Positions 14,101-26,100 of a DNA stretch of 64,000 bases are shown here, piece by piece. Under the pieces are notes generated by a model. That model saw nothing but the letters and a program-made list of their open reading frames with translations, had not been told where the DNA came from and did no database searches. Where the stretch lies: NCBI GenBank assembly GCA_000310025.1, contig FN649734.1, positions 5,385,284-5,449,283 of the forward strand, in the 5' to 3' direction. Made by a program: the position numbers and the translations under genes. Each line of letters opens with the position of its first letter. The stretch's first letter is position 1. The DNA is from Ectocarpus siliculosus. Its lineage: Eukaryota > Sar > Phaeophyceae > Ectocarpales > Ectocarpaceae.

Positions 14101-17100
14101 CATCATGATTCTGGCGTGTTGTGCTTGCTAGGGAATGTCGCACATGAACCAGAAGCAGCTCTGTGTAGCCGAGATGATTGCACAACCTCTCCGAAGAAGG
14201 GAACGAGGATGTCGGAGGCGTGAACCGTGTGGTGATGGCCCCCCATAGAGCTGTTACGCCCTGTGTGCATGGAAGAGTAATACACTGCTGTCAAACATAT
14301 CATCGTGCTCAACTCGACTGAGCATTCGACTCCCGACGAACGCCGATCCAGGTCGTTGCGCTTTGTGGACACCTGCCGTTGGTGCTCGCTATCGCGGGTT
14401 CCATGTCCGCCGTGAAGGGGAAGGGCTTGACTGCCGTCGCCTGGGAAGAGCTTGCCAAAGAGTTTGAGAACGTGGCCAAGAAAATGAGAGCTCGGGGCCA
14501 GCAGTCATCGTCTATCAAAGTGGTCCTTGAGACCACTTTCGACTCCTTGGCAACACGGAAGCAAAAAGAGTTTCTGATGATGGCTGTGTTGGCCGCGGGT
14601 GCTCTTGCGCCGATCGAGATGCTGTCTAATCTGTGGGAAATAGAGGTACGTTGGGGCGTCCCTTTTACCAGGTAGTTGGAAGTCGTGAAACGGTTTGCAA
14701 ATCTTGTGCCTGTTAGATGTACGGGCACGTTGGTGGTTTGCGCGAGTGCATACGCCCTGGTTTTGACGGGTTTTGAAAGTGTGCTGACCCCCGTTCATGT
14801 ATGTCCGGTGTTTCGTGCAGGACGCTGAGGGTACGCATGCCGAAGCTGAGGGTCTGGTGAGCAAGTACCTCCTACACGCCGTGGGTGGTGGTGGGTACCG
14901 TATGCACGACCTGGTCCTGGACTTTGCGAAGACTAGCATCAGGGCAGAAGAGGAGACGGTGAAAAGGGCCACAGCGCTGCAGGCGCAGTACCTCGGGAGA
15001 CTGGACGTGGTGGAGAGTTACGGAGACCCGGAGCACGGCGCTGGAGACCAAGGAATTTTCTTTTTGGATGCGCTCTGGCGCTCGGTGGAGAAACTCTCGG
15101 GGGACCCTCAGCTGGAGGTTGCCTCTTATCGCGCCAGTCTCGGGGCGTTGGAGTGGGGCGAGGCGACGGAAGCCGCAGCGAGATCCTACTTTTCTGTCGG
15201 TTTCTTGTTCAACGTCCAGGTACGGCAGATATTTTGGGGGGATTCCGCACTATTCGGAGGGGTGTTCGTTGTCTATTACAGTACAAGGGCGCTTCGCGGA
15301 CGACCGCTTTCGCCTGTCGCCGCTACGCTATTAGTAGGCTCTATGACGATGTCGAGTGTATACGGGCTGAGTTTCGAGATGAAAGGAAATATGTGTTCTA
15401 TTTTTTTAGAAAACTACCCTTTGTTCTTCCGCCTTTTGCATCTTCTCGCTGTTGCAGGGCAAATTTGAGAAAGCCGGACAATTGAATGAACGCTCTTTGC
15501 CATCCCCGAGAAACCTCTAGGGCCTGATATCTCTGATGTGGCCGCCTCGCTCAACAACCGGGTGTGGTTCTTGAGAAAGTGTTCCTCCGCACTTAACTTT
15601 AGTCTCCTTGACTACACCCACACCATGTTGTTTTTCCGTTTCCAAGTTTGGCAACGCTGAACAACCGGGCGGGGTTGTTGATCCAGGTATCAAAAATCTC
15701 CCGGAAATGTTGTAGGGTCGCCATTGGTCGGGGAATCTTCAAAATTCTTTATTAACCGCTCCCTCACCGTACTGCACGGCTTGCTGCGCAGGGCAAGTAC
15801 CGTATATGACACAAGATAACACACCCCCTGGACCGATTTTCAGAGCTCGATTACTTCACGACGAAGATGATGCATGGACGAAAGGATACATTTTCAGAGA
15901 GCTGTCGACCAGACGGCTTCAACGCCGCCGTTTTCGGCCCTGCGACTGTTGCTGCTGTTGGAAAATCGAGCTTTGAAAATCGGTCCAGGGGGTGTGTTAT
16001 CTTGTGTCATATACGGTATGCTGAAGCGGAGCCACTCTATGAACGGTCACAAGCAATACGAGAGAAGGTGCTGGGTCCCCAGCACCCGGATGTGGCCCGG
16101 TCGCTCAACAACCGGGCGTTGGTGTTGCAGAAACAGGTGAAAGCCAAACGATGCTGCATCAAGAAAAAAAAAATCATCTGCAGTTCTAGATCCGACTTGT
16201 TCTAAAGCACGACCCACGCTGTCGACAGCATTCCAGGGGAAGTATGCCGAGACCGAAATCTGTGAGACAGCGCTAGGTTGTGAACATCCAACCGTCGCCA
16301 CATTTAGACGTCGAGATTACATTTTTGTGTCCAAAAACGTGTCCATGGTCGTTTGCCGAACGTATTAGATCCAGTGCAAAGTAACCAACCAACGCTCCCG
16401 AAACTGGACTCTGACGTCACCAAAATTTTGCCACGCGCAACTAATTTTGTAAACACCACCGAGGCGTACGAAGCACACTGCACACAACACACACAGCCAC
16501 CGCACTGCCAGCAAAGGATCATGTGCGCTGCGCTGGCGGTTCAGGAATACTAGTATCGCCGATCAGTTGGAGCGGCAGCGCATGCATATGTAGGCGTTTA
16601 CAGCAGTACAGCAGCACAGCAAGGGATGGAACTTGGAACATGCAGGAGGAAAAATTATGCCGAATAGTTTTATTGTCGACAGGCGATCCTTGGCCGATGT
16701 TTCTCTCCGTTCTGCCGTTGCCCATAAGCCGTCGCAATCGATGTCAAGCATATGCTCAGCTAGCCCTAGTCACACTGGTGGAAGCACTTTACTTTCTTCG
16801 CCCTTGATGGATTCGTTTCACACCACGCACACGTATTTTCTAAAAATCTTCAAGTAGGAGCCTGGAGCCAGATACTGAGCTATATCAGACCGATACACTG
16901 CTCTGCTGCCACAATCACGCACAAGCACGTTTTTGAGACCAATTCATCGAGGACGAGCAAAGTTGAGAGCTTCCGATAACCGGTATAAGCAGCGCTTGCG
17001 GCGCATGTGCTCAGGATCACCTGTCGCAGCTTGTGGACGGTGGGAGCACGGGTGAAGAAAAGCTCGGACATGCGTGATTTTTCGACACTGTTTGTTTCGT

Positions 17101-23100: not shown

Positions 23101-26100
23101 CAATTCCAACAGCGAATATATCAGCCGATCCAGTTAGAAAATGGGCTTAGTTACTAACTCGTCAGCTGGAACCCTTGGAAATATTCGGGCTGTGAGAATG
23201 TGGGCTCTAGGAATTTCCGTTTTCCTCCCCGTAAAAAAAAGAAGGAAATGACGCCCCCCCCCAACTCAAAACCCAGAAAAAATGTTTGCGTACGAAACCG
23301 CCTCAACTTGAGAAGTTGCACATTGCACAATCGTGTTCACTTCCTCACCCCGCAGTGCCGCTACAAGGAAGCCGAAGGTCTATACGAGCGTGCAGCTGCG
23401 ATTCTTGAGGTGGCGCTGGGGCCGGAACATCCCAACTTCGCCGCAATTCGCAAAAACTGGTTGGGTCTATTGGAAAAACAGGTAAACACGATCGTTTCAT
23501 TGACCTCCAGGGCATTCGTGTGATGTCGTGAGACATGCAGTTCGTGAGAAATCCATTGCTGCTTTATTAACCTCCGGTCAACATATCACACCGGTACCTA
23601 CGTGCCTGGATACAGGGGCGACACGAAGAAGCCGCGCATCTTTCCGAGCACGCTCCCCCAAACTTTTCGTCGACAGCCAAAGGCGGTTCTATGGATGACT
23701 CTCCCTTCGAAGGTGGTGATGGTTTGCAAGGTAGGCATTTTCGATGTCAAGTGTTTGTCATGATCGAGCGACCACTAGCCAGATGCGAAGGGTTGTTGCT
23801 AGTTCTCTGATTCAGAATATCCATGCGGCACGTGTAATCGATGGACGATATTCCAAATTGTCGTTAGATGTACCGGTCTCGCACACCCAGGCTTGATTGA
23901 TGTTCATCTGTTGTCGCCCAATCGTCTAGGGCGAGCGTTGATACTGGACGACATGAAGGGCGCCTCCGAACTTCACAAGGCCGCGTATGGCGGGGACGTG
24001 AAGTTGGTGGAGGAAATCCTTTCTTCTCGCAGCTTGCTCCCAGACATCCGGGGGAACATCAGCATGACTCCGCTGCACTATGCCGTGATACAGGGTCACA
24101 GAGACTGTGTGTGGGTGCTATTGCGGCACGGCGCCAACCCTGACCTGCAAAATAGCAGCGGGTTGACCGCTCTTCACATGGCATGCGCTAACCTTTCCCA
24201 TCAATTGGTTAAGCTTTTGATGGACTCGGGCGCTGACCCTAACATGAAAGACGACCGCGGGCTGGAACCGAAGGGTCATGCCCAAAACGACGAAGAATTG
24301 GAACTCTTGCTGACGCTTGGAAAAGGTACGTATCGAGAGTCCTCCGCTCACCCGCGCCATCATCGCCATTGCCGGCCATACCGGCCGATGTCATGATGTA
24401 TTTGGAGGTTCGATTTGCCGATGTGCCGCCGTCATACTGTGCACCGATCGCAAATAGAGGCGCCAGCATCGGAAAGAAGACGAGACTGGATATTTTGTAT
24501 GCGTCTCTTTCGTAGTTTTCGAAGTCAGCAGTTCTTCGATTCCTCGTTTGAAATTTCCTGATCGACATGTTGCAACTATGGCAGGTTACCGAATTGGAAG
24601 CGGCAAGGACGCGGTCAAAAGTGCTCCTCAGCTACAGCAGATTCTACCCCTCATGCTCACCTTCCTTGATAGCCGCAGCTGGTGTCAGTGCCTGAGTGTT
24701 GGTCGCTCAGCGCGTGATACCGTTCGAGCGTTGATCTCGGGCTTGATGCCGGATGGGCCGAGGCCCGAAGAGGGATGGACAGGTGCGATCCACCGTTGTT
24801 TTTGTCGGTTCTCATCTGTACTCGAATAGACTAGGTGTTATGGCTCTCCGTCTTTGGGCCGTTCGTTAATGCTCGCGAATGTACTTGGTCCGTATCTTCT
24901 CTACAGCGTGGCGGCGTACGTTATTCGTTCAAGCCCACAACCGGACCCCACCCCGATGAAGCCGTACACCCCTCGTCCGTTCCGTGCACCTGTTCTTGTT
25001 GGTAAAAGTCCCGCTAGATGTACTGACGCTGAAGACGGATGACGCAGGCGTTGCCTACCTGGCTGCCAATGAATGCGGCATCGCCATTCACGGCGAGGCA
25101 GGGAGCCTTGCGCACCTGAAAGCTGTGATTGTTCCACCTCCGCAGTCCGGGTTTATCTCGGTGGAGGGGGAGCAGTATATTGCAACGTCCCCCATTCTCC
25201 GCTGCCGGTGGACAGGAAACAACTGTTCGCAGGGTACGTGGACGGTGAGCTTTCCATTGGAGGAGGAGGACGGTTTGTCCAACCCAACGGAACTTTCTCA
25301 AGTTCTTTGCCGCGGTGATGAGCTTCAGGATGAGTGGGAGGTGCAGACGACCGGGCTGAAGGCCGCCACGCGGCACCCGTCCATGCAAGTTGAGGTCACT
25401 CACTTCTCGGACATAATCACGGCTGATAAGCTGCGCGAAATAGAAGCGAAATCTACGAGCATCGTCTACGAGCGCAAGAGGTCTTGGGTAAGTGATGATC
25501 CGCCCTTTCCGGGTGCGCTCGTGGAAATTTTAGTACGTTCAGAGCGGTTACTGGAGACCCAACGCGTGGCATACCCGGTTCGGAGACCTCAACACACTCA
25601 CATCCAATCACTGAATTTCGACCAATCTGTCCTGAAAACCTGCGGTTCTAGTTGAGCGGCCTTGTACGAGAGTCGGATGCAGGAGATCTCCTAACAACGG
25701 GGATGAGTCGTCATCACCCTCTCTGCCTTCCTGCAAATAATCCTGGCTCGTGTGTCACGTCCATATTTTGATGTCAAGCTGCTACTACTTCGAAGGTGTA
25801 AGAAGCGGCGGTGCCGGAGCTCTTTCTGCGTTCGATATCTCGAACGTGGGAATGGGAACAGTTCTTTTTCGGGACATGGTCTGCGGGCTATCCTTATTTA
25901 CTGCATGTCACATCATCGTCCACCCCTCTCCGTTCCTTTGGCCAGTTCTTTTCCAAGCACGTGCGTGTTTACAACGCTTCTTCCGAGGCCATGACTGTTC
26001 TTCAGATACTCCCGGCTGTGACGGAGTCGGCGAGAAGTGGTCAAGTGTCGGTCCCAGGAGGCGGTTTAGGCGGCAGTAGGAGTATCAATGTCAATGATGG

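Follow-up and report, generated by a model that had tools for sequence, protein, structure and literature searches.

The closest described relatives of the gene analyzed here are the NB-ARC-TPR candidate immune receptors of brown algae, which share an NB-ARC domain with TPR repeats, repeat-coding exons, and shuffling arrays. In PMC11378527, exon shuffling of these genes is credited to Zambounis 2012 and Teng 2023. The same text presents the brown algal LRR-ROCO genes, receptors likewise built with one repeat per exon, which undergo exon shuffling as well as alternative splicing; their exons differ in being 72-bp phase-2 LRR exons. Here, we examine a gene in a 64,000-nt stretch of the Ectocarpus siliculosus genome (assembly GCA_000310025.1, contig FN649734.1, positions 5,385,284 to 5,449,283 of the forward strand; referred to below as the window), together with related TPR arrays in the same assembly. 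The gene is a member of the known family: an NB-ARC domain precedes a TPR array, the TPR exons have constant length and constant phase, and there is shuffling among paralogues; their length of 126 nt is also that of the published family. Comparison of the arrays suggests that this receptor family probably diversifies its TPR repeats by joining DNA at a palindrome inside the exon, here called P, and not at the exon edges.

Joints cluster at a palindrome within the TPR exon

All comparisons were made within this single assembly (189 Mb in 492 contigs, with the window on contig C9). The first NB-ARC exon of the window gene has 37 genome matches including itself; those of 69-87% identity on C2, C6, C10, and C458 adjoin TPR cassettes, and around a match of 73% on C476 no cassette core was found in 8 kb. 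A single cassette used as query gave at least 150 scored genome matches (595 candidates). The window was compared with 24 additional arrays or pieces of arrays, selected by their similarity to a single cassette (the C476 stretch by its NB-ARC match), which makes 25 stretches in all. Cassette cores are present in 24 of these, 273 in total, of which 207 are exactly 126 nt long and open, with AG..GT borders in 204 and AG..GC in three. The flank analyses use 202 of the 207, after removal of one cassette in C16 and four near fragment ends; the change-point sets also omit C485 and C10c, apparently simple tandem arrays, and C16, with many head-to-head cassettes and a degenerate P, is left out of the count of inverted joints. 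One stretch in each of two of these contigs stands out: in C485:137001-147000 (L018), eleven cassettes that are nearly identical recur about every 452 nt, which looks like a young, plain tandem expansion, and C16:824001-828500 (L028), where P is degenerate, is rich in inverted repeats and densely packed with cassettes, one about every 270 nt, on both strands.

P is a 26-nt imperfect palindrome, CTCAACAAC-N8-GTTGTTGAG, at exon nucleotides 94-119, coding roughly for LNNRAGLL. The clearest cassettes read CTCAACAAC-CGGGCGGG-GTTGTTGAG, with 9-nt reverse-complementary arms around 8 nt. With exact arms and a spacer of 5-11 nt, P occurs at 40 sites genome-wide (80 rows over both strands) and the reversed control at none; every exact site that could be checked lies in a TPR cassette or within a few hundred bases of one. 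A degenerate 24-nt pattern of P had 0 matches in viral contigs. Among 91 non-redundant cassettes (<80% identity) of the 202, the ratio of synonymous identity to expectation is 2.07 for codons 32-39, reaching 2.2-2.9 in codons 32, 35, 36, 38, and 39, compared with 1.14 for the other codons between 4 and 41. Because bacterial and archaeal repeats show no such excess at the same codons (1.12 versus 1.09; 323 non-redundant repeats, 80 loci), the protein function of the repeat does not explain this synonymous conservation.

The point at which likeness between cassettes changes falls at P (positions are given as 0-based exon offsets). In pairs that are alike over the initial 60 nt of the downstream intron, identity climbs from 0.65 at offsets 86-94 to 0.97 at 95-103, and in pairs sharing the end of the upstream intron likeness falls after about offset 110. 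Where the 3' flank is the same and the bodies, meaning the exon parts upstream of P, are different, 29 of 36 non-redundant pairs change at offsets 81-98; in 9-nt bins, the 36 change points lie at 63 (1), 81 (5), 90 (24), 99 (1), 117 (3), and 126 (2). The ends of local alignments between arrays agree with this placement: 21 stretches gave 305 alignments of 90-900 nt and ≥90% identity, of which 59 start and end at P (within 18 nt of its center in both sequences) and 225 have at least one end there, compared with means of 3.3 (maximum 10) and 55.1 (maximum 75), respectively, in 300 random shifts; array copies are related by descent, and neither the alignments nor the pairs nor the null shifts are independent. 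Both-end cases number 26 at exonic P (offset 106) and 0-4 at 12 control exon offsets.

The same boundary emerges when the arrays are cut into units. In 12 arrays, cuts at exon starts yield 8 full-length copy pairs among 126 units, cuts at offsets 75-126 yield 60-62, and cuts at -90, -60, 170, or 190 yield 16-23. Division of eight stretches from P to P gives 96 units, and 56 of these belong to 13 copy families, the order of which differs among arrays C2a, C2b, C2c, C6, C10, and L034; the seven copies of family C have seven different right neighbors. An earlier annotation of the window (the original prediction) had proposed exon shuffling, and units are indeed reordered among paralogous arrays, with the correction that what is swapped runs from P to P and is not the exon. 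Adjusted mutual information over 72 cassettes of seven arrays divides the exon similarly: eight variable residues between 4 and 31 track the 5' flank (0.18-0.33) and not the 3' flank (0.00-0.12), and residues 37, 40, and 41, in the tail, track the 3' flank (0.15-0.31) above the 5' flank (0.05-0.13).

P copies outside intact exons also seem to bear traces of joining. Across 21 stretches, a spacer length other than 8 nt occurs in 29 of the 69 copies outside recognized bodies and in 6 of the 136 exonic ones (Fisher p 5e-11, with copies that are not independent). The constancy of the exonic spacer follows from the constraint of the reading frame, and the variable lengths elsewhere point to joining that is imprecise at the core. 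Intronic copies have other partners, with D-module ends joined to D-module starts in tandem units of about 90 nt. Among the 66 cassette cores that fail the intact rule, 18 have broken tails, in which the body is fused directly to the acceptor half of an intron and the donor is absent.

Cassettes on both strands occur in C6 and C16 among the 25 stretches, and also in L034 and L035. The inverted unit of C6 is 234 nt long (8211-8444), is 95% complementary to 7690-7923, and sits between P copies at 8198-8225 and 8435-8459; that of L034 (2110-2353) lies between P copies centered at about 2110 and about 2351; and in L035 two bodies meet head to head at a P centered at 1654. All three inverted joints that can be placed sit at P cores.

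Joints thus cluster at P, units reassort, and the length of the P core varies where the frame imposes no constraint. The swapped unit would extend from one P core to the next, taking in the tail of exon n with its donor, the following intron, and then the body of exon n+1. The position of P does not vary between cassettes, so a clean joint would restore a 126-nt phase-0 exon; and since the reverse complement of P is nearly P itself, inverted joining of units would be possible too. In the germline, the palindrome may break or stall replication and then be rejoined by pairing of short homologies; we consider such germline joining at a fragile palindrome the likeliest mechanism.

Such joints would have consequences for the receptor protein. 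Alignment to kinesin light chain, together with TPR numbering, suggests that each exon codes for helix B of one repeat and helix A of the next, so that the one TPR per cassette of the original prediction holds for the 42-residue unit and probably not for the boundaries of the repeat. We take cassette positions 29-42 to be helix A of the next repeat, and TPR groove positions 2, 5, 9, 12, and 13 to correspond to cassette positions 30, 33, 37, 40, and 41. Amino-acid entropy is 3.1-3.5 bits at 37, 40, and 41, among the most variable positions, 2.6 at 30, and 2.1 at 33; positions 17 and 27, outside the groove set, also exceed 3 bits. The P core codes for residues 35-37. With P midway in helix A, an exchange would make a chimeric TPR helix, and would probably recombine groove-facing residues 30/31 of the body with 37/40/41 of the tail.

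Weighing joints at P against other explanations

A number of observations weigh against joining at P. When pairs are selected by flank only, just 22 of 40 non-redundant 3'-flank pairs break at 80-99, and the others break at the intron/exon border (11), at 50-69 (5), or at 130-139 (2). With a shared 5' flank (n=34), change points fall mostly at 120-159 (26), with 7 at 100-119 and 1 at 40-49; the donor sequences are themselves conserved, which blurs the right edge of the exchange. Single alignment ends are also frequent elsewhere, with 71 of 305 at exon starts and 84 at offset 186; the plateau of the anchor cuts is as wide as offsets 75-126, both copies of unit family K keep the same neighbors, and 5' and 3' flank types are still linked (adjusted mutual information 0.17, versus -0.004 when permuted). 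The palindrome itself is mostly imperfect: exact arms are a minority, the mean complementarity is 5.4 of 9 arm positions in the 91 non-redundant cassettes (3.6 in bacterial repeats), and 8 or 9 positions are complementary in 13 of them. Its synonymous excess is patchy, with codons 33, 34, and 37 at 1.02-1.26, and high values also occur outside P, at codon 31 (2.3) and at the exon-edge codons 1 (1.9) and 42 (1.7). The inverted joints are only three, and L034 and L035 were chosen for an exact P, which favors the result. Finally, the four P regions that were tested as RNA fold no better than their shuffles (z -1.0 to +0.2), and on these four sequences the idea that P acts in splicing through an RNA hairpin was dropped.

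Part of this evidence would fit a P that is merely a conserved block of DNA, retained for instance as an exonic splicing signal, at which ordinary homologous recombination or gene conversion ends. Synonymous conservation 7 nt from the donor would be expected of a splicing signal too, the exon-edge codons are also high, and homology suffices for direct joints. Among 16,414 pairs of unrelated cassettes, however, 10,102 have their longest exact run in the body and 6,253 have it in P, so that on homology length alone most exchanges would not be expected at P; nor does a conserved block by itself explain the inverted joints at P or the core length changes outside bodies. We regard this explanation as possible but rather doubtful. 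Classical exon shuffling, in which whole phase-0 cassettes move by breakpoints in the introns, has a published basis in this brown algal family (as discussed in PMC11378527) and would preserve the frame, since the introns between cassettes are phase 0. The border breaks in 11 of the 40 flank-selected pairs and the 16-23 copy pairs from mid-intron cuts are in keeping with it. It is already disfavored, and to us improbable, given the 8 copy pairs of the exon-start frame versus 60-62 in the 3'-exon frame, tail residues that track the downstream intron more than their own body, and the excess of alignments with both ends at P.

A dedicated recombinase or nuclease that cuts P in a V(D)J-like manner, in germline or soma, would account for a defined palindromic site, joints in both orientations, and imprecise cores. 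Variable spacers argue against conservative site-specific recombination, however, and V(D)J-like recombinases and somatically recombined ROCO loci are described as unreported in brown algae, likewise for NB-TPR genes, in PMC11378527. We think it highly improbable that P is a programmed cleavage site at which a nuclease or domesticated transposase cuts the cores and end joining reassembles half-cassettes either way; if it were, receptor grooves would be diversified in V(D)J fashion, possibly somatically, with the joining site itself coding for a ligand-binding helix. The least probable of these explanations is that inverted and tandem units are assembly artefacts. Short repeats do assemble poorly and a single assembly was used, which also counts against joining at P, but many copies of a unit are several per cent apart in sequence and are found on several contigs in different contexts, and the inverted units of C6 and L034 are about 95-97% identical to their best matches, which is not expected from read chimeras of neighbors. 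Germline joining at P remains the reading that we prefer.

The receptor gene in the window

The NB-ARC-TPR gene of the window lies on the plus strand and starts at 10161. Its first exon gives a Pfam NB-ARC match as an open reading frame (E 1.7e-16) and an Apaf-1 match in PDB (E 4e-13), and the joined exon model reaches E 2e-22 for NB-ARC and 4e-140 for TPR_12 (Pfam). The names P-loop, Walker-B-like, GHLPL, and MHD are ones that we assign to stretches of the NB-ARC exons. The features are as follows.

10161..11147, plus strand: exon 1, N-terminal region and first part of NB-ARC; open phase-0 exon, GT at end
14352..14645, plus strand: exon 2, remainder of NB-ARC, with GHLPL; phase 0, AG..GT, NB-ARC profile match spans the exon
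14821..15219, plus strand: exon 3, linker region with MHD (from the translation); phase 0, AG..GT
15458..15575, plus strand: decayed cassette, a stop-bearing body followed by P (15550-15575) without splice donor, a broken tail (sequence)
15657..15686, plus strand: lone P and tail with donor, body absent (sequence)
15792..16136, plus strand: cassette split by a miniature inverted-repeat transposable element (MITE), parts 15792-15799 (8 nt) and 16019-16136 (118 nt) adding to 126 nt
15798..16018, plus strand: MITE, 55-nt inverted arms (98%), including the TA duplication (repeat analysis)
16304..17770, plus strand: larger terminal inverted repeat (TIR) element in a second cassette, just left of P; 18-nt TIRs 16304-16321/17753-17770, 94%
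17776..17808, plus strand: P and tail with donor, remnant beyond the TIR element (sequence)
17952..18077, plus strand: TPR cassette 1 (profile); P 18045-18070, one arm mismatch
18190..18315, plus strand: TPR cassette 2 (profile)
18438..18563, plus strand: TPR cassette 3 (profile); P 18531-18556, two arm mismatches
18589..18714, plus strand: decayed 126-nt open cassette, 5' half lost; profile score 62 (intact ten: 101-129)
18836..18925, plus strand: cassette body with CCC start, 3' end lost (sequence)
19048..19173, plus strand: TPR cassette 4 (profile)
19754..19879, plus strand: TPR cassette 5 (profile)
20117..20242, plus strand: TPR cassette 6 (profile)
20435..20560, plus strand: TPR cassette 7, GC donor (profile, splice borders)
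20902..21027, plus strand: TPR cassette 8 (profile)
21420..21545, plus strand: TPR cassette 9 (profile)
23356..23481, plus strand: TPR cassette 10 (profile)
23616..23730, plus strand: half-TPR exon, phase-1 end (frame analysis)
23930..24325, plus strand: ankyrin-repeat exon; Ank E 1.7e-21 on the open reading frame, in frame with the half-TPR exon

The ten intact cassettes announced by the original prediction were recovered by profile and splice-border reading, each 126 nt long, AG-flanked, open in phase 0, and coding for 42 residues. They score 101-129 on the profile; when the same splice rule is applied to five random 64-kb sequences from a first-order Markov model, the best match stays below 0, a margin that is flattered because the profile was built from these ten cassettes. 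The near-identity of splice borders that had been described is true of the 3' ends, all of which read CAG, and is broken by the GC donor of the cassette at 20435 and by two cassettes that begin with DRN and CRY rather than GKY-like residues. Introns between successive intact cassettes range from 112 to 1810 nt. The repeats are of the TPR_12/TPR_10 type (Pfam), and kinesin light chains are their closest solved relatives by sequence.

The array had been placed at 15458-23481. Its intact part begins at 17952, and 15458-17808 holds damaged cassette pieces only. These dead pieces are of two kinds, transposon hits and half-cassettes, and they appear in part to resemble the products of P joints in other arrays. 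Scoring of 40 among 1482 initial candidates for the MITE in the genome yielded five further copies with 99-100% identity, so that the insertion looks recent; the longer genomic relatives of the larger TIR element are at 67-77% identity. Arm complementarity of P in the eleven 126-nt matches of the window is 8, 2, 7, 6, 7, 4, 5, 4, 1, 5, and 4 of 9, indicating mostly decayed copies, and the cassette region shares just three alignments ≥60 nt (63-90 nt, 90-91% identity) with 20 other stretches. The suggestion that live and dead stages stand side by side at this locus is sustained for the dead pieces, which are real, and hardly for live exchange: judged by its sequence, the array of the window looks old and is a poor exhibit of it.

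Its frame fit with the half-TPR exon makes the ankyrin-repeat exon a candidate part of the NB-ARC-TPR gene. Downstream of it, however, a C-terminal open reading frame (25050-25484) has no second genome copy and no Pfam match. AlphaFold2, run without an alignment, modeled the N-terminal domain as five helices with a mean pLDDT (predicted local distance difference test) of 48, too poor for a fold search, and PADLOC gave a single weak match (E 0.0057).

Other repeats lie within and beyond the gene. A pair of about 300 nt (12348-12648 and 22566-22874; 93-94% in ungapped pieces, 91% over 309 nt) contains a box-B-like stretch, GGTTCGAATCC, and is perhaps a tRNA-derived short interspersed nuclear element; ARAGORN found no tRNA there. 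The last long intron holds three direct copies of 107 nt (21996-22549) at spacings of 217 and 230 nt, and at 44158-46160, GC-rich units of about 93-111 nt form tandem arrays that have long open frames on both strands.

Comparison with other receptors and joining systems

Relative to the NB-ARC-TPR receptors as described in PMC11378527, the difference at the present arrays is that the joint is mapped to a palindrome inside the exon. In the literature covered, outside which Zambounis 2012 and Teng 2023 themselves fall, we found nothing that connects palindromes with exon shuffling in this family. A search of the genome for LRR-ROCO genes returned one COR match just above the cut-off, with no rule-passing LRR exon in the 10 kb there. 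Apaf-1 and the NLRs (STAND NB-ARC proteins) share the order of an NB-ARC domain followed by a repeat domain; here, the latter is instead a kinesin-light-chain-like TPR built from cassettes. Kinesin light chain in turn has the 42-residue TPR_10/TPR_12 repeat and differs in being without NB-ARC; to our knowledge, its TPR is not an exon-shuffled array.

P offers a precise, testable site at which to study how the receptors of brown algae are diversified. If joints form there, germline or somatic exchange could be read from short P-to-P junctions, and it is the groove-forming helix, not whole repeats, that would be recombined; phase-0 cassettes could then be shuffled without intronic breakpoints. 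V(D)J recombination joins DNA at defined sites, in both orientations, and with imprecise joints. The arrays described here share with it a defined joining site used in both orientations and imprecise joints, a likeness known from one assembly, and differ from it in that P lies within coding sequence and stays in the product.

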